45,405 nt of DNA, from contig JAICQO010000054.1 of NCBI GenBank assembly GCA_025937835.1, forward strand, positions 1-45,405, in the 5' to 3' direction. Below, one piece after another: positions 28,873-41,294 of this stretch. The notes beneath the pieces were generated by a model. That model was not told the DNA's origin, searched no databases, and was given only the letters and a program-made list of their open reading frames with translations. The stretch comes from Polyangiaceae bacterium. Its GTDB lineage: Bacteria; Myxococcota_A; Polyangia; Polyangiales; Polyangiaceae. A program made the position numbers and the translations under genes. Position 1 is the stretch's first letter; each line of letters starts with the position of its first letter.

Positions 28873-30123
28873 ATGAAGCTGAAAGCATCCCTGATGGCTG
28901 CGCTGTCGTTGCTCGTCGCCTGTGGCGGAGGCGGCGACGGGCCACCCGTCGGACGCTCTCCCGGCGAGCCTGTGGGGCTGCCCTTGCTCGATCGACCCGT
29001 GCAGCCGGGATACTCCTGTCAAGTCACGCAGCCCGTCACTCCTTTCGGGCGTGGGCGATGGGGAGGAGCTGCGCTCGCCCCGACGAAGCCCCCGCTCCTG
29101 GCACTGAGCGACAACTGTTGGGACGATTGCGACAGGGAGGTTGGGATCGCGGTGGCGGCGCTCGAACGAGGTGCGCTCGGTAAACTGCTCCCGATCTCCG
29201 ACAGGGACATGAATCCAGGCGCTCCCACTCTGGCCGTGAACGGCGAGCGCATCACGCTCGTCTGGCGGCTGTCCGGCGATATCGACCGCGCTCCCCGTCT
29301 GATGCTGGCGCAACTCGATCGGGAGGGCGAAGTCGTCACGCCGCCGCACCCGCTACCGGAAATGGGAGAGCCGGAGAGTTTTGCGATCGCTGCGACCGGC
29401 GACGGCTATGGGCTGGTCTGGACGGAGCTTGTCTGGACGCTGGAGTCGCGACTGTATTTTCAACGCCTGGACCGAGACGGCGAACCGCTCGCCGCCCCGA
29501 CGCGAGTGCTCGACGGCGACGCCGGGGCCATCTCGAACTTCGTGGGCGTGGGCGACGGATTCGCCGTCGTTCTCGGCAAGGGCGACGAGGCACCGAATCG
29601 CAAGATGCGCTACCTCGGGCTCGATGCCGTGGGCCGACCGTACTGGGGTCCCGTGCCGTTCGCCGAATGGGGTGTGTCCCTCTTGCCGCGCGGACGGCGC
29701 GTGCTCGTGGCTTGGTCTCACACTCTCGGATTGGGCCTGGGCTCCAGTATCCGTATCGGGTGGTTCAGCGAACGCGGTGAGCCAGAGGGCGACACGCTCG
29801 AGCTGAGGGCGCCCATCTACGATCAGGACCACTTCGATGCGGCCTGGGTGGAGCTCGGTGACGACCTGGGTCTGGTCTGGTCGCGAGCATACGGGGATGG
29901 GGGCTGTTGGGACTGCTCCCCGAAGACTCACCTCGAGTTCGTCGTCCTCGACGGCGAGACGCTCGAGCCGAAGAGCGACGTGGTCCGCATCGATTGGCCC
30001 GACCCGACGGGCCTGCTCACGGGGTCGATGCTGGTAGCGGACAGGCGCGACGTGACCATCGTTACCAACATTGCGTTCCACCGGTTCCTCGAGGGCGCGA
30101 GCGCCGGTGTCTCATGCCGCTGA
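28873..30123 (+). CDS. Lipoprotein paralog 1 of tandem family (no linker)
   Basis: The 416-residue product has a lipoprotein signal (MAALSLLVAC, Cys17) and a short Gly-rich spacer. A repeating beta-rich body follows, with blocks shared by the next two genes: LLDRPVQPGYSCQVTQPV, APTLAVNGERITLVWRLSGD, FAIAATGDGYGLVWTE, RYLGLDAVGRPYWGPVPFAE, SIRIGWFSERGEPEGDTLELRAP, WVELGDDLGLVWSR, and HLEFVVLDGETLEPKSDVVRI. The periodic GDGYGLVWTE and GDDLGLVWSR units suggest a beta-propeller. ATG at 28873 follows GAGGGCG by about five bases. Function is unknown; a surface binding role fits the architecture. Confidence 0.82.
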   Translation: MKLKASLMAALSLLVACGGGGDGPPVGRSPGEPVGLPLLDRPVQPGYSCQVTQPVTPFGRGRWGGAALAPTKPPLLALSDNCWDDCDREVGIAVAALERGALGKLLPISDRDMNPGAPTLAVNGERITLVWRLSGDIDRAPRLMLAQLDREGEVVTPPHPLPEMGEPESFAIAATGDGYGLVWTELVWTLESRLYFQRLDRDGEPLAAPTRVLDGDAGAISNFVGVGDGFAVVLGKGDEAPNRKMRYLGLDAVGRPYWGPVPFAEWGVSLLPRGRRVLVAWSHTLGLGLGSSIRIGWFSERGEPEGDTLELRAPIYDQDHFDAAWVELGDDLGLVWSRAYGDGGCWDCSPKTHLEFVVLDGETLEPKSDVVRIDWPDPTGLLTGSMLVADRRDVTIVTNIAFHRFLEGASAGVSCR

Positions 30124-30228
30124 CAGAGCCTGGGCGAATTGGAACACTTTGGGACAGATTGATAAAGCGTGACGCCTAATGATTTCCAATGGTTGGACTT
30201 AGGCACGACCAGTGCAGCTGCCCGTGCC

Positions 30229-31734
30229 ATGACCTCTTTCCTACGAACACTCACGGGCGTTTCACTGCTCGGCGGCGCACTCGCCGTCGCGGCCTGCGGC
30301 GACGACGACTCGGACGGCGGCTCTGCCACGGGCGGCAGCGCGAGCACGACCGGCGGCAAGGCCGCGACGGGCGGCACGCCGGCTACGGGCGGCGTGGCAC
30401 CGAGCGGCGGCAAGAACGGCTCCACCGGGGGCAACGCAACGACTGGCGGCGCGCAGCAGGGCGGCGGCGGCAGTGGTGGCGACGCAGGCGGTAGCGACAG
30501 CGGCGGCAACGCGGGTGACGGAGCGGGAGGCAGCGGCGAAGGCGGCGCTGCGGGCGGCGACACGGGCGGCTTCGCGGGAGTCCCCAGCGAACCCGAGGGC
30601 GCTCCGTTGCTCGAGCGTCCCGTCGAAGGCGGCTACGCCTGCGAGCTCAGCCAGCCGCTCACGTTCTTCGATTTGGACTGGAACGGCGCAGACGTCGCGC
30701 CGGGCGATTCTCCGTGGCTGTTCTGGAGCGCGGCGGAGACCGCAACGCTGGTCGGTGCGGCGCTGGACGCTGGCGCGCTCGGAGCCCCGCACACGGTGCA
30801 CGATCCGAGTGCCAACGGCTATGTCACGCCGCCGTCGGTCGCGCGAAACGGCGAGCGGATCACCGTGGCCTGGGCCCAGGTCGGAGACCAAACGACGCGC
30901 GTCCAGCTCGCTCAGGTCGACGCCGACGGCGAGGTCGTGACGGAAGCGCACGCGCTGCCCGGCGACGCCGGGGCCGGCACGTTCGCGATTGCGGCCGCGG
31001 GTGACGGCTACGGCGTAGTCTGGACCGAGCCCAGCAGCGAGACCACGTCGACGCTCAAGTTCCAGCGCCTCGACGCGGACAGTAACCCCGTCGGCGCGCC
31101 GAAGGTGCTCGCCGAAGAAGAGTGGCTGTACGTGGTCGACCTCGTCGGGTTGGACGACGGCTTCGGCGTTGCCTACGGCCATGGCTACGGCACGAACGAC
31201 ACCGTGCGCTACCTCGGGTTCGACAACCAAGGCACGGCCTATCGCGAGTCGGTGCCGTTCGCGTACTCCGACGTGGCGCTGCTGCGGCGCGGTGATCGCG
31301 TGCTCGCCGCCTGGACGCGCGCCACGGGCGAGCCGAGCGAGAGCCTGGCGGTCACGCTGCGTGTCGGTTGGTTCGACAATCGCGGCAACCCCGTCGGCGA
31401 CACCTTCGATGTGCAGAGCCCCGTGCTCGATCAAGAAAATGTCGATCCCGCCTGGGTCGAGCTCGGCGACGATCTGGGGCTCGCCTGGTCGCGCGGCAGC
31501 GTGATCTACATCTGCGCCGGCTGCATCCCCGACAACCACGTCGAGTTCCTGGCCCTGGACGGCGAGACGCTACAGCCGAAGAGCGAGGTCGTCAGCATCG
31601 AGAACTCGGACACGAACGGCGGACTGATGAGCTCGCGCTTGTCGGCGAGCAGCGGCGACGTCACCGTCGTGAGCTCGGTCACCTATCACACGAGCGCCGA
31701 GGGCGCGTCGTCGGTCATCTCTTGCACTGAATAG
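30229..31734 (+). CDS. Lipoprotein paralog 2 of tandem family
   Basis: The 501-residue product has a lipoprotein signal (LLGGALAVAAC, Cys23), GDDD, then a long GGS/TGGK/ATGG linker to about residue 125. The shared body follows: LLERPVEGGYACELSQPL, VARNGERITVAWAQVGD, FAIAAAGDGYGVVWTEPSS, RYLGFDNQGTAYRESVPFAY, LRVGWFDNRGNPVGDTFDVQSP, and WVELGDDLGLAWSRGSVIYICAGCIPDNHVEFLALDGETLQPKSEVVSI. It shares most blocks with paralog 3, including the CxxC in CAGC. The start ATG at 30229 begins the signal. It stands 105 bases after paralog 1 and 16 before paralog 3. Confidence 0.85.
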   Translation: MTSFLRTLTGVSLLGGALAVAACGDDDSDGGSATGGSASTTGGKAATGGTPATGGVAPSGGKNGSTGGNATTGGAQQGGGGSGGDAGGSDSGGNAGDGAGGSGEGGAAGGDTGGFAGVPSEPEGAPLLERPVEGGYACELSQPLTFFDLDWNGADVAPGDSPWLFWSAAETATLVGAALDAGALGAPHTVHDPSANGYVTPPSVARNGERITVAWAQVGDQTTRVQLAQVDADGEVVTEAHALPGDAGAGTFAIAAAGDGYGVVWTEPSSETTSTLKFQRLDADSNPVGAPKVLAEEEWLYVVDLVGLDDGFGVAYGHGYGTNDTVRYLGFDNQGTAYRESVPFAYSDVALLRRGDRVLAAWTRATGEPSESLAVTLRVGWFDNRGNPVGDTFDVQSPVLDQENVDPAWVELGDDLGLAWSRGSVIYICAGCIPDNHVEFLALDGETLQPKSEVVSIENSDTNGGLMSSRLSASSGDVTVVSSVTYHTSAEGASSVISCTE

Positions 31735-31750
31735 TCCGGAGGAGTCAGCG

Positions 31751-33304
31751 ATGTTTTCGAGCTTTCGCGTCGCCTGGGTCGTGTCTCTGATTGGCGCTTC
31801 GATCGCCGCCGCCGCTTGTGGTGACGACGACTCGGGCACCGATGCATCGACGGGCGGAAGCGCCCCGCTGGGCGGTGCCGACACGGGCGGCGCGAAGGCG
31901 AGTGGCGGCACGGGCGGCACCACGGGCGGTGCAGCACCGACCGGCGGCAAGGCGGCGAGCAGCGGCGGAGCCACACCAACCGGGGGTGCTGCTCCGAGCG
32001 GCGGCGCGCCTCCCGCGGGTGGGGCAGCAGACACGGGTGGGGCAGCAGACGCCGGTGGGGCAGCAGACACGGGTGGGAGAGCCGACGCTGGCGGCAGCGG
32101 CGGCGCGCTCGAAGGCGGCTCCGGCGGCACCGGCGACGAAGAAATCGGCGGCACCGCTGGCGTGCCCAACGAACCGGAGGGCACGCCGATCCTCGAGCAA
32201 CCGCTCGACGGAGGCTACGCGTGCGAGGTCGAGGAGCCGCTGTTTCTGCCGGAGCTGCCCGGGAACGGCGCGCTCGTCGCTGGCGAAGCGCCGTCGCTGT
32301 TCTGGAGTGACGCGCAGGACCAAGTAATCCGCGGTGCGAAGCTCGACGGTGCCACGGTCGGCGCGCCCTATACGCTCCACGACTCGCAGGGCAACACGTA
32401 CACTCTGGCGGCGGCCCGCAACGGCGAACGCATCACGCTGCTCTGGGAGGAAGCCGAGGGCACGACGCGATGGCTCTACAGCGCTCAGGCGAATGACGCC
32501 GGCGAGGTGGTCACCGAACCCCACGCCCTGCCTGGGGCGACACCGAACAGCGCTGGCGCGGCTCTCGTGTCATTCGCGGACGGCTACGCTGCGGTCTGGG
32601 TCGAAGGCGGCGCGGAAGAGTCCGTGACCCGTTTCGCGCGGCTCGATACGGAAGGAGAGCTCGTGGGCTCACCGAAGACGTTGCTCGAAGAGAACGTGTC
32701 GCGCATCGATGCGCTGGTCGCCCTCGAAGACGGGTTTGCGCTGGCGTACACCGGCTTCGAGAACAAGCAGTTCTCCGCATTCGTTGCGTTCGACGCCGAG
32801 GGGACGCCCTATCGCGAGCCCATCGTGCTGGGGGAGCCGGGCGTCGGCTTGATCCGGCGCGGAGACTACGTGGTCGCGGCCTGGAGCGTGGGCACCGGCG
32901 ACCCGGGCAGCGCCTGGGCGAGCAACCTCCGGATCGGTCGCTTCGACGATCGCGGGCGTCCCGTGGGAGACGTCTTCGAGCTGCAGGCCGCGGTGCTGCA
33001 CGAGCAAAACTGGCTCCCCGCGTGGGTCGCTGTCGGGGACGACCTCGGCCTCGTCTGGTCGCGCGGCGGTGTGATCTACATCTGCGGCGGCTGCATTCCG
33101 GACGACCACCTCGAGTTCGTCGTGCTCGACGGCGACACCCTCGCGCGCAAGAGCGAGCTCGTGACGCTCGAGAATCAAGAGACCTCGGGCGGCCTGTTGC
33201 GCTCGCGGATCGTCGCGAGCAGCACCGGGCTGACGCTCGCGACCAACGTGACCTATCACGTGACCGCAGAAGCGGGGCTCGCCACGCTCACGTGCACGCC
33301 CTGA
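31751..33304 (+). CDS. Lipoprotein paralog 3 of tandem family, with 18-bp coding repeats
   Basis: The 517-residue product has a lipoprotein signal (LIGASIAAAAC, Cys23) and GDDD, then a TGGA/TGGK/AGGA linker to about residue 135. The linker DNA holds three 18-bp tandem units (32018-32071). The body matches paralogs 1 and 2: ILEQPLDGGYACEVEEPL, AAARNGERITLLWEEAEG, FVAFDAEGTPYREPIVLGE, LRIGRFDDRGRPVGDVFELQAA, and WVAVGDDLGLVWSRGGVIYICGGCIPDDHLEFVVLDGDTLARKSELVTL. GGAGG at 31739-31743 is a fitting ribosome-binding site for ATG 31751. It is followed after 13 bases by the dikinase-like lipoprotein gene, so the genes probably share a transcript. Confidence 0.87.
   Translation: MFSSFRVAWVVSLIGASIAAAACGDDDSGTDASTGGSAPLGGADTGGAKASGGTGGTTGGAAPTGGKAASSGGATPTGGAAPSGGAPPAGGAADTGGAADAGGAADTGGRADAGGSGGALEGGSGGTGDEEIGGTAGVPNEPEGTPILEQPLDGGYACEVEEPLFLPELPGNGALVAGEAPSLFWSDAQDQVIRGAKLDGATVGAPYTLHDSQGNTYTLAAARNGERITLLWEEAEGTTRWLYSAQANDAGEVVTEPHALPGATPNSAGAALVSFADGYAAVWVEGGAEESVTRFARLDTEGELVGSPKTLLEENVSRIDALVALEDGFALAYTGFENKQFSAFVAFDAEGTPYREPIVLGEPGVGLIRRGDYVVAAWSVGTGDPGSAWASNLRIGRFDDRGRPVGDVFELQAAVLHEQNWLPAWVAVGDDLGLVWSRGGVIYICGGCIPDDHLEFVVLDGDTLARKSELVTLENQETSGGLLRSRIVASSTGLTLATNVTYHVTAEAGLATLTCTP
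32018..32071 (+). repeat. Three 18-bp tandem repeats in the linker of lipoprotein paralog 3
   Basis: Units GGTGGGGCAGCAGACACG, then the same with GCC in the last three places, then ACG again, encode GGAADT/GGAADA/GGAADT. Because units are a multiple of three, gain or loss changes linker length without shifting frame. Confidence 0.8.
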
Positions 33305-33317
33305 TCCGGAGCAGAAC

Positions 33318-35696
33318 GTGAAACACTCGAGCAAGCTCCTGCCGCTACTCTTCTGCGCGTCGCTGCTCGGGTGCGGTGATAGCGATCCGTCGCGCGACCG
33401 GGAGCCCGGGTTCCGCGTCGAGCTCCGCTCCTCCGACGGCGGGGCGCCCGAGGATTTCCGGGCCGTGCTGGCCGAGTCGGGCTCCGTATTCGCGACGAGC
33501 TGCCCCGCAGGCGGTGCTCCGCGTCTGCGTTGCCAGAGCGATGGGCTCACGATCCCGGAGGTCGTTGCCGGCGCCACGTTGACCGTGAAGGCGCCGGGCT
33601 TCGAGTTCGTCACGCTCGAGCTCGGGGAACAGGAGCTCGCTGAGGGCTCCCTTGAGCTCGAGCTTCGACGCTTGCCGCCGTTCGAAGTGAAGGACAGCTA
33701 CCGCACCGGTTTCGAGGGCGAGCCGGAGGCACAGTTCGAAGCGCTCGGCGCGAGCTTCGTGACCGAGCTCGGGCCCGTGCAAGCGGTGAAGTTCATCATC
33801 ACCCGGCTGGATTCCGAGCCGCGTGTCTATTTTCAGAACACCCGGCTCTTTCCCGGGCACTACGAGTTCGCCGAGCGGGTGCTCGGGATCACGAGCTCGC
33901 GCGCCGAGTTCGCGCAAAGCACCTATCAGGGTGAAGCCCGGCGCCAGCTGGCCGGCACGCTCGAGTTCTTTCCCGAGCTCACGCTCGAGAGCCGCGCGTT
34001 CGGCGGAGCGCTGACGCGCCCGGTAGCGCTCGAGTTTTTCCCGAGCGACGACCTGTCGCCCGAGCTCGTGCTGCGCGCGCACCGTTTGCTCGAAGAGCGG
34101 CTCGGCACGGCGCTCGACGCCGGGGATCGGCGTCTGGTGTACGTGCCCGCGGGCAACGTTCAGGAGCAAGAGCTCGCTGCTTCGGAGGCCGAGTTCGCGG
34201 CGCGAGACGCGCTGTTCTCGGATCACCTCGAGCTCTACTCGGGGCTCGAGCAGCAGATCCTGAACCCCGGGTTGGCTTACGGCACGCTGCTGCGGGTCAC
34301 ACCGGAAGAGCTCGAGCAGCGCGTGGTGTCGTTCCGCGAGCTCCTGGTGCTGACGCGGTTGCCCAACGAGCTCCCGCTCGTCGGTGGGACCATCACCGAG
34401 GAGCTCCAGACGCCGCTCGCCCACGTGAACCTCGCCGCCAGAGCGCGCGGAACCCCGAACCTTTCGCTGATGGGCGCGGGCTCGGATCCGCGGGTCGCGC
34501 CGTTGCTCGGCAAGCTGGTGCGCTTCGAGGTGACGAAAACCGGGTTCTCTCTGGAAGAGGCCACCCTCGAAGAGGCAGAAGAGTTCTGGGCGTCGCGAGG
34601 CGGTGAGCCGCTCGTGCCCGAGAGCGACCTCGAGTTCGAGGAGCTATCGAGCTTCGAGGAGCTCGGCTTCGACGACGCGATCCGCTTCGGGGCCAAGGCG
34701 GCGAACCTGGCGGAGCTCCGACAATCGTTGGGTGAGCAGGCGCCGCCCGGGTTCGCGGTGCCGTTCTCGGCTTATCGCAGCTATCTGCGCGAAAATCCCG
34801 TGACCGAAGCGCTGTGCATCGACGCCGCCGACGACTGCGCCGAGGAGGGCCGCAGCGCCGAGCTGTGTGACGCCGCCCGGGCGCGCTGCGACGAAGCCCG
34901 CGCCGCGGAGTCGAGCTTCGAAGACTATTCGCGCACGCTCCTGGCCGACCCCGAGCTCGTCACCGACGCGCCGCTCCGCGAGGCGTGCCTCGACGGGCTC
35001 GCGTACCTCGTGCAACACGGCGACGTCGACCCCCAGTTTGCGGCGGCGCTCGACGCCCGCGTCGTCGAAGTGCTGGGCACCCAGAAGGTGCGGCTGCGCT
35101 CCAGCACCAACGCCGAAGATCTACCCGGATTCAGCGGCGCTGGTCTCTACGACTCGGTCTCGGCCGAAGGCACCGGCAACGACAGCCCGTCCAACGAGAT
35201 CCGCAAGGTCTGGGCATCGGTGTTCCGCTTCCGCGCCTTCGAGGAGCGCGCGCTCTGGAACGTCGATCACGACGCGATCCAGATGGGCGTCGCCGTGAAC
35301 CCCGCCGTTGACGACGAAGCCGCCAACGGCGTGCTCGTCACCCAGAACATCCCGAGCCCGGGCGCCGAGGGCTACTACGTCAACGTGCAGCAGGGCGAAG
35401 TCGAGGTCACGAACCCGGAAAACGGCGCCGTCGCCGAGGTCTTCACGATCGTGCCCGCGCCGTCCGGCACCCACCAGGTGATGCGCCAGCGCTTCTCATC
35501 CCTCTCCCCCGGCGTCGCGCTGCTGACCGACGCCGAAATCGACGACCTTTACGCAGCTTCGAGCCGCGTGCAGTCCCACTTCGCCAAGCTCTACCAAAAG
35601 CCCGCCCGCGAGCTGCCTCTCGACCTAGAATTCAAGGTGTTCGGTCCCGAACGAAAGCTCTGGATCAAACAAGCCCGGCCCTACTTCACCCGCTGA
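33318..35696 (+). CDS. Exported dikinase-like lipoprotein (phosphohistidine-like domain before ATP-grasp PEP/pyruvate-binding domain)
   Basis: The 792-residue product has a lipoprotein signal (LLFCASLLGC, Cys19). A beta-rich N-terminal region reaches about residue 340. A mobile phosphohistidine-like domain follows, with TPLAHVNLAARARGTPN (likely phosphorylated His369). A PEP/pyruvate-binding ATP-grasp domain covers about 455-792: FGAKAANLAELRQ (Lys460), VRLRSSTNAEDLPGFSGAGLYDS (Arg594), ..., LDLEFKVFG and KLWIKQARPYF. PEP synthase and pyruvate phosphate dikinase have the ATP-grasp part first; here the His domain comes first, as in glucan water dikinases. Export of such an enzyme is unusual because ATP is scarce outside the cytoplasm. 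GTG at 33318 follows CGGAG by six bases. It is 13 bases after lipoprotein paralog 3. Confidence 0.82.
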   Translation: MKHSSKLLPLLFCASLLGCGDSDPSRDREPGFRVELRSSDGGAPEDFRAVLAESGSVFATSCPAGGAPRLRCQSDGLTIPEVVAGATLTVKAPGFEFVTLELGEQELAEGSLELELRRLPPFEVKDSYRTGFEGEPEAQFEALGASFVTELGPVQAVKFIITRLDSEPRVYFQNTRLFPGHYEFAERVLGITSSRAEFAQSTYQGEARRQLAGTLEFFPELTLESRAFGGALTRPVALEFFPSDDLSPELVLRAHRLLEERLGTALDAGDRRLVYVPAGNVQEQELAASEAEFAARDALFSDHLELYSGLEQQILNPGLAYGTLLRVTPEELEQRVVSFRELLVLTRLPNELPLVGGTITEELQTPLAHVNLAARARGTPNLSLMGAGSDPRVAPLLGKLVRFEVTKTGFSLEEATLEEAEEFWASRGGEPLVPESDLEFEELSSFEELGFDDAIRFGAKAANLAELRQSLGEQAPPGFAVPFSAYRSYLRENPVTEALCIDAADDCAEEGRSAELCDAARARCDEARAAESSFEDYSRTLLADPELVTDAPLREACLDGLAYLVQHGDVDPQFAAALDARVVEVLGTQKVRLRSSTNAEDLPGFSGAGLYDSVSAEGTGNDSPSNEIRKVWASVFRFRAFEERALWNVDHDAIQMGVAVNPAVDDEAANGVLVTQNIPSPGAEGYYVNVQQGEVEVTNPENGAVAEVFTIVPAPSGTHQVMRQRFSSLSPGVALLTDAEIDDLYAASSRVQSHFAKLYQKPARELPLDLEFKVFGPERKLWIKQARPYFTR

Positions 35697-36256: not shown

Positions 36257-37690
36257 TCAGCACCACCGGACTCGGACGACATAGGTGATCTTGGTTTTGC
36301 CGTGCGCCGGCACTTGGGCGCGGAAGGCGAAGGTTTGGGAGTCTTTGCGTTCGGCGGGGAGGGAAGAGGAGACGATGGTCCAGTCGCCGCCGGTGGCTTC
36401 GATGGTTTCGACGGAGACGGCCGTGTCCTTGTGGTTTCGGAGCTCGACCTCCCAGGCGCTCTCGCTGCTGCACTCGCCGAGCGCGGTCCATTTCATTTGC
36501 TTGCGGTCGCCGACCACGTCGAAGGCGTCGCCGATCTTGATTCGGACCTTTTCGTCGCGCGGGGTGTGATCGATCGCGTCTTCTCCGACGAACTGCTGCG
36601 AGCCGCTCTTGTCGGCTTTGTAGACGCGCAGCGTGCCCTTCGGGAGCGGCATGCCGAGCCGGTTTTTCTGGGAGTTTTCGAACTCGAGCGTGACGGCGAC
36701 CTTCTGGTTGGTCTGTACCTGGCCGACCTGGCTGCGGAACCAGTAGCGTTGCGACGGAAGCAGTAGCTTCTTGGTGACACCGAGGCCGCGGCCCTCGAGC
36801 AGCGTGACCTGCTTTTGCTCGTTGTTCCGGAGCGTGGTCGGGTGGCCGAGCGTGTACAGGTGGTACTCGAACAGAGACTCTTCGCGCATGCGCATGTCGC
36901 GCGCGGGGGCGGACTTGTACGCGACGGAGCCCAGCGTGCCGCCCTCGGGCTCGACGCGGTTCACGTCACCGGCGACCAGCTTGAGCTCGGCGTCCTTGTA
37001 CGAGGCGCCGGATTGGTTCGATAGCGTGACCCAGCCGGTGAGATCCGCGCGCGTCTCCTTGTCGTCGAGCACCATCACGTAGTCGGCGCTCCAGCTCATC
37101 TCGCGCGCGAGGTAGCTGACCTCGACGGACTGCTTCGGCTGCCGGCTGGCGAGCAGCCACATCAGGGTGGGGCGCGCGATCAGATCTTCGGGTACTTCGG
37201 GGAACGCGAAGCGGCCGCCGTAGCCGAAGGTGATTTCCTTGCCGATTTGCAGGACCGGCCCGCCGGCGACGGATAGGAGCTTTGCGTCTACGGCCTGCTC
37301 TTCGGCCTTGGCCTCGTGGTAGCGGTAGACGCGCACGGGGCGGCCGACGTACTTCTCGAGCAGCTTCTCGGGCGTGAGCAGGTCATAGCGGTAGTTCTGC
37401 TCGAGCACGGCGAGCGCGCCCGGGCTCGTGAGCGAGCGGATGTGCACGGTCTCGGGCTGGATGGTCGCGGCCACGTCCGCAAACTCGAGCGAGACCTCGC
37501 CGTTCGGCAGGGCGTCGAGCGTGCGCAGCTCGCGCACCAGGCCGAAGTTCTGGTTGTAAACCGTGAGCGTGACCTTGGTGCGATCCTTCTCGGTGGAGAC
37601 GCGCTCTGCTGGCGGAGCCGCAGCGGCGGCGTTCGACAACGACAGGGAGAGCAGCGAGCAAGTGAGGAACTTCGGTAGGGGTCGGCTCAT
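36257..37690 (-). CDS. DUF4139-family secreted protein (paralog of next gene)
   Basis: The 477-residue product starts at ATG 37690 with a signal peptide (LTCSLLSLSLSNAAAAAPP). DUF4139-like blocks follow: KVTLTVYNQNFGLVRELRTL, VLEQNYRYDLLTPEKLLEKYVGRPVRVYRY, KEITFGYGGRFAFPEVPEDLIARPTLMWLL, VEVSYLAREMSWSADYVMVLDD, and LTGWVTLSNQSGASYKDAELKLVAGDV. The C-terminus ends TYVVRVRWC with a terminal Cys. Family proteins are beta-rich envelope proteins of unclear role. Its start is two bases from the stop of the lipoprotein paralog, so both are in one minus-strand operon. Confidence 0.85.
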   Translation of the reverse strand: MSRPLPKFLTCSLLSLSLSNAAAAAPPAERVSTEKDRTKVTLTVYNQNFGLVRELRTLDALPNGEVSLEFADVAATIQPETVHIRSLTSPGALAVLEQNYRYDLLTPEKLLEKYVGRPVRVYRYHEAKAEEQAVDAKLLSVAGGPVLQIGKEITFGYGGRFAFPEVPEDLIARPTLMWLLASRQPKQSVEVSYLAREMSWSADYVMVLDDKETRADLTGWVTLSNQSGASYKDAELKLVAGDVNRVEPEGGTLGSVAYKSAPARDMRMREESLFEYHLYTLGHPTTLRNNEQKQVTLLEGRGLGVTKKLLLPSQRYWFRSQVGQVQTNQKVAVTLEFENSQKNRLGMPLPKGTLRVYKADKSGSQQFVGEDAIDHTPRDEKVRIKIGDAFDVVGDRKQMKWTALGECSSESAWEVELRNHKDTAVSVETIEATGGDWTIVSSSLPAERKDSQTFAFRAQVPAHGKTKITYVVRVRWC

Positions 37691-37692
37691 GT

Positions 37693-39165
37693 TCAGCACC
37701 ATCGGACTCGGACTCGGTAGTTGACGGTCACCTTGCCGCGCGCGGGCACGCTCAGGTCGAACACGAAGGTGCGCGAGTCTTCGCGGCGCGAAGGGTGGCT
37801 CGAGCGCACGAGCTCCCAATCACCAACGACGGGCTCCCAGACCTCGACGGCCTCGGCGGTGTCCTTGTGGTTCCTGATCTCGATTTCCATGTCGGAATCG
37901 GACACGCACTTGAAGAGCTGCGTGTATTGAAGCTGCTTTCGGTCGGCGACGACGTCGAAGGCTTGACCGAGCCGGAGCTTCACCTTCTCGTCGCGCGGAG
38001 TGTGGTCGAGCTGGTCTTCACCGACGAACTGCAGGCCACCCGCGCTGTCTGCCTTGTAGACGCGGAGCGTGCCCTTGGGTAGCGGCATGCCGAGCTGGTT
38101 CTGCTTCGCGTTCTCGAGCTCGAGCATCACGTCGAGCTGTTGATTGGTGCTGATCGTGCCGTAGCGCGCCAGGAAGTAAGCGCTCTGGCCGCGCAGCACG
38201 AGTTTCTTCGTCACCTGGACGTCGTGCGCCTCGAGCAGCGCGACCTGCTTCTTTTCCTTGTCCTTGACGCTGGTCCGGCGCTCGAGCGTGTACAGGTGGT
38301 AGTCGAGCAGCGACTCTTCCTGGAATGCGGGCGCGCGCGGCTTCGAGAGCGCGATCGACGACGGGCTTGCCTGCTCTGCCTCCCCATCCGCTACCGGGGC
38401 CACGCGCTGCACGTCGCCTGCGACCAGCTTGAGCTGGGCCGCCTCGAAGCTCGTGCCGCTGTCGTTCGTGAGCGTGACCCACCCGTTCAGATCGGCTTTC
38501 TTGTCGGAGGCATCGAGCTTGAGGACGTAGTCAGCGCTCCAGTTCAAGCCGCGCGTCAGATAGCTCACCTCGAGCTCCTGCTCTGGTGCGGCGCTCTGCA
38601 CCAGCCAGACCAGCGTGGGCTTCGCCACCAGGTCGTCGGGGAGCTTCGGGAAGGCGAAGCGACCGGGCAGGTCGTACGTGAGCTGGCCGTCGACGCGCAG
38701 CACGACACCGTTCTCAACGGCGACGATCTCCGCTTCCTTCACCTGCTCGGTGCCGAGCTTCTCGTCGTAGCGGTAGATCTCGATCTTCTCGCCGACGTGT
38801 TTTTCGAGCAGCGTCTTCGGGGACAGCAGGTCGTAGCGGTAATTCTGCTCGAGCACGCTGAAGTCGCTGGATTTGCCGAGGGAACGCACGCTGACGGTGT
38901 TGGGCTCGAGCTCGCGCGCCACGTCACGGTACTCGAGCTCGACCAGGCCCTCGCCGAGCGAGACCAGGCGCCGTTCGCGGATCAGGCCGAAGTTCTGATT
39001 GTAAACGGTGAGGCTCAGGGCCTTGCGCTGGCCGGCCTCCGAAGCTACCCAGCGCGCCGGCCCCGCGGGCGCCTTTGCGACTGGGCGCTGGGCACAAGCT
39101 GCAAGGAAGAGCGGGAGCAGGAGAGCCAGGCCCTGCCCCGCAGAAGAACGGGTTCCGGTGAGCAT
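37693..39165 (-). CDS. DUF4139-family lipoprotein (paralog of next gene)
   Basis: The 490-residue product has a lipoprotein signal (LLPLFLAAC, Cys24), then the same blocks as its neighbour: LSLTVYNQNFGLIRERRLVSL, VLEQNYRYDLLSPKTLLEKHVGEKIEIYRYDE, LTYDLPGRFAFPKLPDDLVAKPTLVWLV, LEVSYLTRGLNWSADYVLKLD, and LNGWVTLTNDSGTSFEAAQLKLVAGDV. It also ends in VNYRVRVRWC. The pair clearly arose by tandem duplication, with the first copy now lipid-anchored and the second only secreted. It is divergent to the ABC-2 transporter genes. Role unknown. Confidence 0.87.
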   Translation of the reverse strand: MLTGTRSSAGQGLALLLPLFLAACAQRPVAKAPAGPARWVASEAGQRKALSLTVYNQNFGLIRERRLVSLGEGLVELEYRDVARELEPNTVSVRSLGKSSDFSVLEQNYRYDLLSPKTLLEKHVGEKIEIYRYDEKLGTEQVKEAEIVAVENGVVLRVDGQLTYDLPGRFAFPKLPDDLVAKPTLVWLVQSAAPEQELEVSYLTRGLNWSADYVLKLDASDKKADLNGWVTLTNDSGTSFEAAQLKLVAGDVQRVAPVADGEAEQASPSSIALSKPRAPAFQEESLLDYHLYTLERRTSVKDKEKKQVALLEAHDVQVTKKLVLRGQSAYFLARYGTISTNQQLDVMLELENAKQNQLGMPLPKGTLRVYKADSAGGLQFVGEDQLDHTPRDEKVKLRLGQAFDVVADRKQLQYTQLFKCVSDSDMEIEIRNHKDTAEAVEVWEPVVGDWELVRSSHPSRREDSRTFVFDLSVPARGKVTVNYRVRVRWC

Positions 39166-39291
39166 GGAGTCGGTTTCGAGCGCTAACGTCGTTCGAACGC
39201 GGCGCCGCGCTTCACCTTACAGGAGATGGGATCAGGTCGCGCTTCGAATTCCGGTCGCCAGACCCGGAGGCAGGTCCTAGACTCCCGCCCG

Positions 39292-40254
39292 ATGAGCGAT
39301 GCCCCTGCGATTCGTTGTCAGCGCCTGGTCAAGCGCTACGGCGAGCTGGTCGCGGTCGCGGGCCTCGAGCTCGAGGTGAAGCGCGGCGTGTGTTTCGGGT
39401 TGCTCGGTCCGAACGGCGCCGGCAAGACGACCACGGTCGAGATGCTCGAAGGGCTCCAGGCCCCGACCTCGGGCAGCATCGAGCTGTTCGGCATCTCGTG
39501 GGGCAAGGGTCAGGATCAGGCCCTGCGCGAGCGCATCGGGGTTCAGCTGCAGGCGACCGAGCTCGGTGATCGGCTGCACGTGGACGAAGTGTTCCGGCTG
39601 TTCCGCTCGTTCTACTCGCGCGGCCGCGATCCGGAGGAGCTGCTGGATCTGGTAGACCTGCGCGACGCGCGACACCAGCAATTTTCCCAGCTCTCGGGGG
39701 GTCAGAAGCAGCGCGTGGCCGTGGCGACGGCGCTCGCGGGCCAGCCGGACCTGTTGTTTCTCGACGAGCCGACCACCGGGCTCGATCCGCGCGCACGCAA
39801 GCAGCTGTGGAAGCTCGTCGAGAGGTTCCGCGCCGAGGGCGGCAGCGTGCTGCTCACCACGCATTACATGGAAGAAGCGCAGCAACTCTGCGACGAGATC
39901 GCGATCATGGACCACGGCCGGCTGATGGCACAGGGGACGCCGCGCTCGCTGGTCGACGGTCTCGGGGACGTGCAGTTCCTGGAGTTCGAGCTCGCGGGTG
40001 AGCTCGACTCGGGCGGATTGGAAGCGCTCGAAGCCGTCGAGTCCGTGCAGCGCCGCGGCCCGCGCTACCGCGTGCGCCTGGGACGGAGCCTTTCCGCTCT
40101 CAGCTCCGTGCTCGGCGAGCTCGAGCGGCAGAACGTGGTGCCGATCGGGCTCAGCACCCACCAGGCCACGCTCGACGACGTGTTCCTGCAGCTCACGGGG
40201 CGCGGGCTCACCGAAGACAACGGCAACGGCGCGCCCAAGTCGGGGGACGAGTGA
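39292..40254 (+). CDS. ABC-2 exporter ATP-binding protein
   Basis: The 320-residue ATPase is intact: Walker A GPNGAGKTT (39-47), Q-loop VQLQATE, signature LSGGQ (134-138), Walker B LLFLDE (154-159) with PTTGLD, and switch His in LLTTHYMEEAQQ. A C-terminal extension (SVQRRGPRYRVRLGRSLSALSSVLGEL, ..., TLDDVFLQLTGRGLTED) is typical of drug or polysaccharide ABC-2 exporters. Its stop codon overlaps the GTG of the permease gene, so the two are coupled. It hydrolyses ATP to drive the permease. Confidence 0.93.
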   Translation: MSDAPAIRCQRLVKRYGELVAVAGLELEVKRGVCFGLLGPNGAGKTTTVEMLEGLQAPTSGSIELFGISWGKGQDQALRERIGVQLQATELGDRLHVDEVFRLFRSFYSRGRDPEELLDLVDLRDARHQQFSQLSGGQKQRVAVATALAGQPDLLFLDEPTTGLDPRARKQLWKLVERFRAEGGSVLLTTHYMEEAQQLCDEIAIMDHGRLMAQGTPRSLVDGLGDVQFLEFELAGELDSGGLEALEAVESVQRRGPRYRVRLGRSLSALSSVLGELERQNVVPIGLSTHQATLDDVFLQLTGRGLTEDNGNGAPKSGDE

Positions 40255-41294
40255 CGAGCGCCGGGCCGAGCCCGCTGCGCGAGCTGACCCTCGCGCGCCT
40301 CCGCGAATTCTGGCGGGAAAAAGGCATCCTGTTCTGGGTGTTCGGCTTTCCTGTGCTGATGACGATCGGGCTCGGCATCGCCTTCCGTTCGCAGCCACCG
40401 GAGCTCCCGCGCGTCACGGTGATCGGAGGAGCGCGAGCGCCGTCGCTCGAGAAAGCGCTGGTGTCGAGCCCGCGCCTCGTCGCGCGTTCGAGCTCGGCCG
40501 ACACGGCGCAGGGCGACCTCAAGCGCGGCAAGGTTGACGTGGTCGTCGATCTCGGCGGCGCCGCGCCCGTCTATCACTACGACGCGCTCAAGGAGCAGGG
40601 GCAGATGGCGCGGCTGCTGGTCGACGAGGTGCTCCAGCGCGCTGCCGGCCGGCGCGATCCGCTGCAAGCGACGGAAGCCAAGGTCTCCGAGCTCGGCTCG
40701 CGGTACATCGATTTTCTCCTGCCCGGCTTGATCGGCCTGAACCTGATGGGCAGCAGCATGTGGGGCGTCGGCTACAACTTCGTGGTTCAGCGCAAGCGCC
40801 GCTTGCTACGCCGCCTGGCGGTGACGCCGATGCACCGCACCCATCTGTTTTTCGCTTACTTTTCGGCGCGTAGCCTGCTGCTCCTGCTCGAGCTCCTGGT
40901 GCTGGTCGTGTTCGGACGGCTGGCTTTCGGAACCGTGATCCAGGGCAGTTACCTTTCGTTCTTCGCGATGTCGGTGGCTGGCGCCGCGTGTTTCGCCGGC
41001 ATCAGCCTGCTGATCGGCGCGCGCGTCGAGAACACCGAGGCCGCGAACGGTTGGATGAACCTGGTGCAGCTCCCGATGTGGGTGCTCTCGGGCGCATTCT
41101 TCTCGTACGAGCGCTTCCCCGACTGGCTCCACGCGCCGATCCGCTGCTTGCCGCTGACGGCGCTGGTCGACGCGCTGCGCGCCATCTGCAACGACGGCGC
41201 CCGGCTGACCGAGCTCGGAGCCGAGCTCCTCGTGCTCGCGGTCTGGGGCAGCGTGAGCTCGCTGATAGCGCTGAAGACGTTCCGCTGGCAGTGA
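40251..41294 (+). CDS. ABC-2 exporter permease
   Basis: The 347-residue product has a first membrane helix (about 26-45, ILFWVFGFPVLMTIGLGIAF), a large periplasmic domain of about 105 residues, then five helices (from FLLPGLIGLNLMGSSMWGVGY through LGAELLVLAVWGSVSSLIAL). The order and the large loop match ABC-2 type permeases, which export lipids, polysaccharides or drugs. GTG at 40251 overlaps the ATPase stop (GTGA). Substrate unknown. Confidence 0.92.
   Translation: MTSAGPSPLRELTLARLREFWREKGILFWVFGFPVLMTIGLGIAFRSQPPELPRVTVIGGARAPSLEKALVSSPRLVARSSSADTAQGDLKRGKVDVVVDLGGAAPVYHYDALKEQGQMARLLVDEVLQRAAGRRDPLQATEAKVSELGSRYIDFLLPGLIGLNLMGSSMWGVGYNFVVQRKRRLLRRLAVTPMHRTHLFFAYFSARSLLLLLELLVLVVFGRLAFGTVIQGSYLSFFAMSVAGAACFAGISLLIGARVENTEAANGWMNLVQLPMWVLSGAFFSYERFPDWLHAPIRCLPLTALVDALRAICNDGARLTELGAELLVLAVWGSVSSLIALKTFRWQ

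Follow-up and report, generated by a model that had tools for sequence, protein, structure and literature searches.

Dikinases of the swivelling-histidine superfamily are, to our knowledge, cytosolic enzymes. In PEP synthase and PPDK (PF01326, PF00391 and PF02896), an ATP-grasp residue set and a swivel His are combined with a PEP/pyruvate-binding barrel; the ATP-grasp domain comes first and the barrel is C-terminal. The plant alpha-glucan, water dikinases (GWD/PWD) place the His domain ahead of a C-terminal ATP-grasp domain. Rifampin phosphotransferase (RPH) from Listeria (PDB 5hv1 and 5fbu) is cytosolic, starts with its ATP-grasp domain, carries a rifampin-binding domain and a catalytic-His swivel domain, and has no PEP/pyruvate barrel. 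The His domain of GWD is essential, and no experimental GWD structure exists for comparison (PMC12892837), which is why GWD was not among the matches of our fold search. HpeHI is a characterised two-component phenol dikinase (PDB 9goj) made of two cytosolic proteins, which uses the same swivel chemistry on small-molecule acceptors, namely phenols; its ATP-grasp component is related to RPH and its His component is RPH-like by model (PMC12167813). In both RPH and HpeHI, the swivel domain ferries phosphate from ATP, on its His, to the acceptor (PMC12167813). We found no described example of an exported dikinase lipoprotein in the literature searched, which lay mostly outside subscription journals; the first-pass annotation had likewise known of none.

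The DNA analysed here is a stretch of 45,405 nucleotides from a Polyangiaceae bacterium (the window), in which the reading frame, Pfam, alignments and a structural model point to an exported dikinase-like lipoprotein of 792 amino acids encoded at 33318..35696 (+). The frame runs uninterrupted from a GTG at 33318 to the stop at 35696, and this GTG is the sole start codon available before the lipobox. A Shine-Dalgarno-like GGAG, read from the sequence, lies 6 bases 5' of the GTG (33308..33311, +), and the preceding gene, for a propeller-like lipoprotein, has its stop at 33304, 13 bases ahead of the dikinase gene. Because of this arrangement, the dikinase gene is probably read together with the preceding lipoprotein gene. 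Promoter and terminator scans gave no signal above shuffles. Long frames are present on the opposite strand under the dikinase gene in this high-GC DNA, and none of them was accepted as a gene.

The C-terminal part of the protein (residues 439-792; 34632..35693, +) was assigned to an ATP-grasp PPDK_N domain using Pfam, PDB sequences, the model and conservation. Pfam PPDK_N matched residues 457-789 (E 1.8e-24; 87 bits, cut-off 27), and the closest PDB sequences were PEP synthase and RPH. Lys460 (codon 34695-34697, +) lies in GAKAANL, Arg594 (codon 35097-35099, +) in LRSSTNAEDLP, and LDLEFKV begins at residue 768; further ATP-grasp residues are Asp769, Glu771, Gln785 and Arg787. An AlphaFold2 model built on 30 aligned sequences reached a mean pLDDT of 88.7 and a pTM of 0.72. 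In this model, residues 439-792 matched both PEP synthase 2ols (Z 28.6) and RPH 5hv1 (Z 29.7, rmsd 2.2 A over 290 residues). Sequence and model both indicate an ATP-grasp domain with the full residue set of the superfamily.

Residues 308-422 (34239..34583, +) were identified as a phosphohistidine swivel domain by fold match, conservation and profiles, with His369 (codon 34422-34424) lying within TPLAHVNLAARARGTPN. Model residues 311-416 matched the swivel domain of RPH (5fbu, residues 766-867; Z 10.9 over 97 residues) and, also with Z 10.9, a related domain of the S. aureus pyruvate kinase 3t05. Profiles alone would make a weak case for this domain: it fell below Pfam thresholds, PF00391 was detected in only 1/30 family members (E 0.1), and a His-domain profile had no match among PDB sequences. 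Both profile-profile alignments with the cytosolic dikinases of the same genome aligned His369 to their catalytic His, at low probability. The fold match and the conservation of His369 nevertheless identify a swivel domain of the superfamily that carries a conserved phosphorylatable His.

Two more domains precede the swivel domain. The N-terminal beta-sandwich (residues 24-120; 33387..33677, +) bears a weak likeness to CarboxypepD_reg and to SusC N-terminal extensions; CarboxypepD_reg matches occurred in 4 members with E of at least 0.04, and structural comparison gave a weak match to PDB 9hfj (E 5.9e-3, TMt 0.68). In the middle domain (residues 130-306; 33705..34235, +), His181, Phe184 and Asp244 are conserved in nearly every relative, and its position is where an acceptor-binding domain would be expected. 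The middle-domain profile found nothing convincing among PDB sequences: its only match, to a designed repeat protein, was short and doubtful. A PEP/pyruvate barrel was absent by Pfam scan and by structural comparison, and Pfam scans of the protein and of family members revealed no carbohydrate-binding family.

Since the swivel match precedes the ATP-grasp match, the His domain lies ahead of the ATP-grasp domain. This order, together with the PPDK_N match and the fold likeness to RPH and PEP synthase, bears out the first-pass annotation, which had read the protein as a dikinase fold in the GWD domain order; His369, Lys460, Arg594 and LDLEFKVF, as well as the lipobox Cys19, all lie where it had placed them. 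The protein differs from RPH in its reversed order, its export and a middle domain of another, unmatched kind. It was not assigned to RPH, given 51 bits against 999 with the NCBIfam RPH equivalogs and an ATP-grasp domain that is not first. Compared to PEP synthase and PPDK, the protein lacks the PEP/pyruvate-binding barrel, is reversed in order and is exported; membership was rejected with PPDK_N as the only Pfam match and 77 bits against about 600 or more for the NCBIfam PEP-synthase models. From GWD/PWD it differs as an exported bacterial lipoprotein in which no starch-binding domain was found. The link to GWD that had been proposed stands for the domain order and falls short for the His domain itself, as the best family member reached 22.8 bits with GWD1_pHisD (PF22973) against a cut-off of 27 and the window protein had no match to it; the protein was not assigned to GWD. 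At sub-threshold level, the best genome-wide GWD1_pHisD match was a member of the dikinase family in the window's genome as well as in 9/20 Myxococcota genomes, and a lower-ranked match fell on a family member in three more genomes. These matches weakly suggest that the His domain of the family is a distant relative of the GWD His domain and not a member of that family.

Export was investigated at the N-terminus, where residues 1-19 (33318..33374, +) read as a lipoprotein signal peptide, MKHSSKLLPLLFCASLLGC, ending in the lipobox LLGC with Cys19. Cys19 is identical throughout A1, an alignment of 30 sequences of the dikinase-like family, although the flanking signal-peptide sequence differs. 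Among the 56 close-relative loci whose 5' end is complete, a simple rule detected a hydrophobic signal in 52 and a lipobox in 49. Most Myxococcota and Fibrobacter members have a lipobox; by the same rule, 11/17 distant relatives passed, mostly without a lipobox. The predicted signal peptide at the sole start, the lipobox and the invariant Cys all support a bacterial lipoprotein, as had been proposed. The mature form would begin with Cys-Gly and lack the +2 Lys that is typical of inner-membrane lipoproteins in M. xanthus (PMC3222651), a rule that may not hold in this host. Moreover, alignment and model place a helical hairpin inside the ATP-grasp domain (34806..34904, +), with Cys residues at 500, 507, 517 and 524 (CX6C-X9-CX6C) that are kept in 61-63/80 sequences; the hairpin region is missing from the shorter distant relatives. 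By their spacing, the pairs 500-524 and 507-517 could form two disulfides, and the conserved Cys hairpin fits an oxidising compartment. A protein that stays in the cytoplasm, its hydrophobic stretch being an internal helix or its start having been called wrongly, would suit the GTG start and the low confidence of the signal region in the AlphaFold2 model. We regard this as highly improbable, given that no other start is available, that the N-terminus reads as a signal peptide, that Cys19 is invariant amid unrelated flanks, that the paired Cys residues are conserved and that most loci encode a lipobox.

The distribution of the family was then determined by sequence searches. A relative of any kind occurred in 215/377 Myxococcota genomes, and the close, near-full-length subfamily (E no higher than about 1e-150) in 28/377. 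Full-length relatives were found in Myxococcota and Fibrobacter, most at 40-58% identity (up to 58% in Myxococcota, 40-44% in Fibrobacter), and shorter relatives (32-38%) in Planctomycetota, Verrucomicrobiota, Gammaproteobacteria and others. When a contig collection was searched, the single protein retrieved no relatives and the alignment query did. His369, Lys460 and Arg594 are shared by all 80 sequences compared, which come from several phyla; this settles the conservation check that the first-pass annotation had called for. Glu771, Gln785 and Arg787 are present in 77/77 of the non-gapped sequences, position 769 is Asp or Glu, and within A1 the catalytic residues show no variation. Of the middle-domain residues, His181 and Phe184 occur in 78/80 sequences (the remainder being X or gap) and Asp244 in 80/80. 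This pattern is unlike that of a decaying relic, and the retention of the catalytic residues across phyla argues against the binding-only relic that had been considered. The family is a genuine branch of an enzyme superfamily already known, conserved and exported.

The window's genome encodes three exported-type members, on contigs C34, C147 and C160, in addition to cytosolic PPDK/PEP-synthase genes. The paralogue on C147 (L002), of about 950 residues, carries a lamin-tail domain (LTD) sequence ahead of the dikinase. A kinase-like domain is likewise joined to LTD in the extracellular CotH kinases of bacteria, which differ in having a protein-kinase-like fold unrelated to dikinases. The cellulosomal protein Cthe_0239, for example, has the architecture LTD-LTD-Fn3-CotH (PMC6083626).

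Clustering of neighbouring frames revealed one family that adjoins the dikinase gene at many loci. Its members are lipoproteins that combine a low-complexity linker with a Cys-rich domain spanning about 185 residues (consensus RVPQ...C...DxxCTFxYxGxxGxxYVQ...YDWGGNHHND...HSSxGxGxRxCQxMDC...EDGC...LPIVC). By profile search, this partner was adjacent in 45/61 close-relative loci, either up- or downstream, with the nearest copy on the dikinase strand in 41 loci, and was found at 0/18 distant loci. Among the 377 Myxococcota genomes, it was present in 24/28 of those with the close dikinase subfamily versus 0/349 of those without (Fisher 4e-34, a count uncorrected for shared descent); for Fibrobacter, co-occurrence is based on loci and six genomes. 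The partner matched no Pfam or NCBIfam family. Its model is all-beta (pLDDT 93.7) and had no above-chance PDB neighbour (best Z 5.0), which does not imply a new fold. The partner family was previously unrecognised, and its conserved pairing with the dikinase is new here.

Eight loci, six of them from Fibrobacter, hold two or three partner copies. At the Fibrobacter loci L076-L079, L090, L091 and L094, a single dikinase gene is flanked, on one side or on both, by repeated tandem copies that have Ser-rich linkers. The multiple copies per enzyme in Fibrobacter are easier to reconcile with several acceptors or ligand-binders than with a single obligate subunit, without being decisive. At the thresholds used, the Cys-rich partner was missing from the window's genome (95.8% complete). 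Since it is missing there and from the distant relatives, it cannot be the sole acceptor.

In the window, the dikinase gene is preceded by three tandem genes for propeller-like lipoproteins, all on the plus strand: 28873..30123, whose start was inferred at MKLKASLMAALS, 30169..31734, and 31751..33304, the last being the candidate partner in this genome. The trio (28873-33304) forms one family with Ala/Gly/Thr-rich linkers and no Pfam match. The same family lies directly upstream of the dikinase, in one or two copies, at L063, which encodes the closest relative of the window protein (58%), L061 and L068; similar lipoproteins beside the gene in other genomes, for which the first-pass annotation had suggested looking, were thus found. 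Plausibly, the dikinase acts together with a lipoprotein encoded alongside, and the partner differs by lineage. On the other side of the dikinase gene, the window contains two adjacent, mutually similar DUF4139 proteins (36257-39165, -), the second with a lipobox-like N-terminus, and a DrrAB-like pair of ABC transporter ATPase and ABC-2 permease with a 4-base overlap (39226-41294, +).

We lean, with modest confidence, towards an exported, lipid-anchored swivelling-histidine dikinase that would pass phosphate from ATP through His369 to an extracytoplasmic acceptor, together with its co-encoded lipoprotein. The C-terminal ATP-grasp domain would bind a nucleoside triphosphate, most simply ATP, and the beta-phosphate would move to His369 on the swivel domain. 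The swivel domain would then turn and hand the phosphate to an acceptor bound at the middle domain (residues 130-306), where His181 and Asp244 are conserved, and AMP and phosphate would be released, by analogy with RPH and HpeHI. The acceptor would lie outside the cytoplasm and would most likely be the co-encoded lipoprotein, Cys-rich in most relatives and propeller-like in the window, or its ligand; we infer that the lipoprotein serves as acceptor or as subunit. ATP is scarce outside the cytoplasm, which counts against this mechanism, as do the sub-threshold profile matches of the His domain, the unmatched fold of the middle domain and the absence of the Cys-rich partner from the window's genome and from the distant relatives. 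The donor ATP might come from lysis of prey or neighbours, or from ATP release, and extracellular ATP released by bacteria has been documented (PMC6335424). That such dikinases form a widespread system, using extracytoplasmic nucleoside triphosphates to phosphorylate co-encoded Cys-rich or propeller-like lipoproteins or their ligands, is a broader proposal that we make only tentatively.

The lack of an obvious extracytoplasmic ATP supply would be explained if the protein were a pseudoenzyme, the dikinase fold being kept outside the cell as a ligand-binding or structural scaffold without phosphotransfer, and the lipoprotein partners hint at a surface complex. Pseudoenzymes usually lose part of their active-site residues; here, all nucleotide- and phosphate-handling residues, on two separate domains, are kept across several phyla, and we consider a pseudoenzyme unlikely. 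The missing ATP source would also be accommodated by an enzyme that consumes or produces a compound other than ATP, either by running in reverse and dephosphorylating a substrate to form nucleotide, as the dikinase reactions of PPDK are reversible, or by using pyrophosphate or PEP. The protein retains the entire ATP-grasp residue set and has no PEP/pyruvate barrel, which makes this reading still more improbable than a pseudoenzyme.

An active enzyme could also have an extracellular small molecule or glycan as its acceptor, like RPH, the phenol kinase or GWD; the Cys-rich lipoprotein would then be a subunit for substrate binding or docking and not the acceptor. The nearest folds are indeed small-molecule dikinases, the weak GWD1_pHisD similarity is recurrent, and the fibre-degrading Fibrobacter surround the dikinase gene with two or three copies of the partner, with glycoside-hydrolase-like genes, identified by reading only, near some of these loci. 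No carbohydrate-binding domain was found, however, and CAZyme neighbours are not general, which speaks against this reading. We judge an acceptor of this kind possible but rather doubtful, and retain as our preferred reading the transfer of phosphate through His369 to the co-encoded lipoprotein or its ligand.

A large exported branch of this superfamily with an intact active site raises the question of which phosphate donor and which target are used outside the membrane. The conserved partner lipoprotein makes this question testable, since it provides a candidate for the acceptor or for a subunit, and the pairing offers an entry point to the function of a family that has no Pfam or NCBIfam annotation. 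If the proposed mechanism is true, these bacteria would carry out extracellular phosphorylation by a phosphohistidine dikinase instead of a protein-kinase fold.
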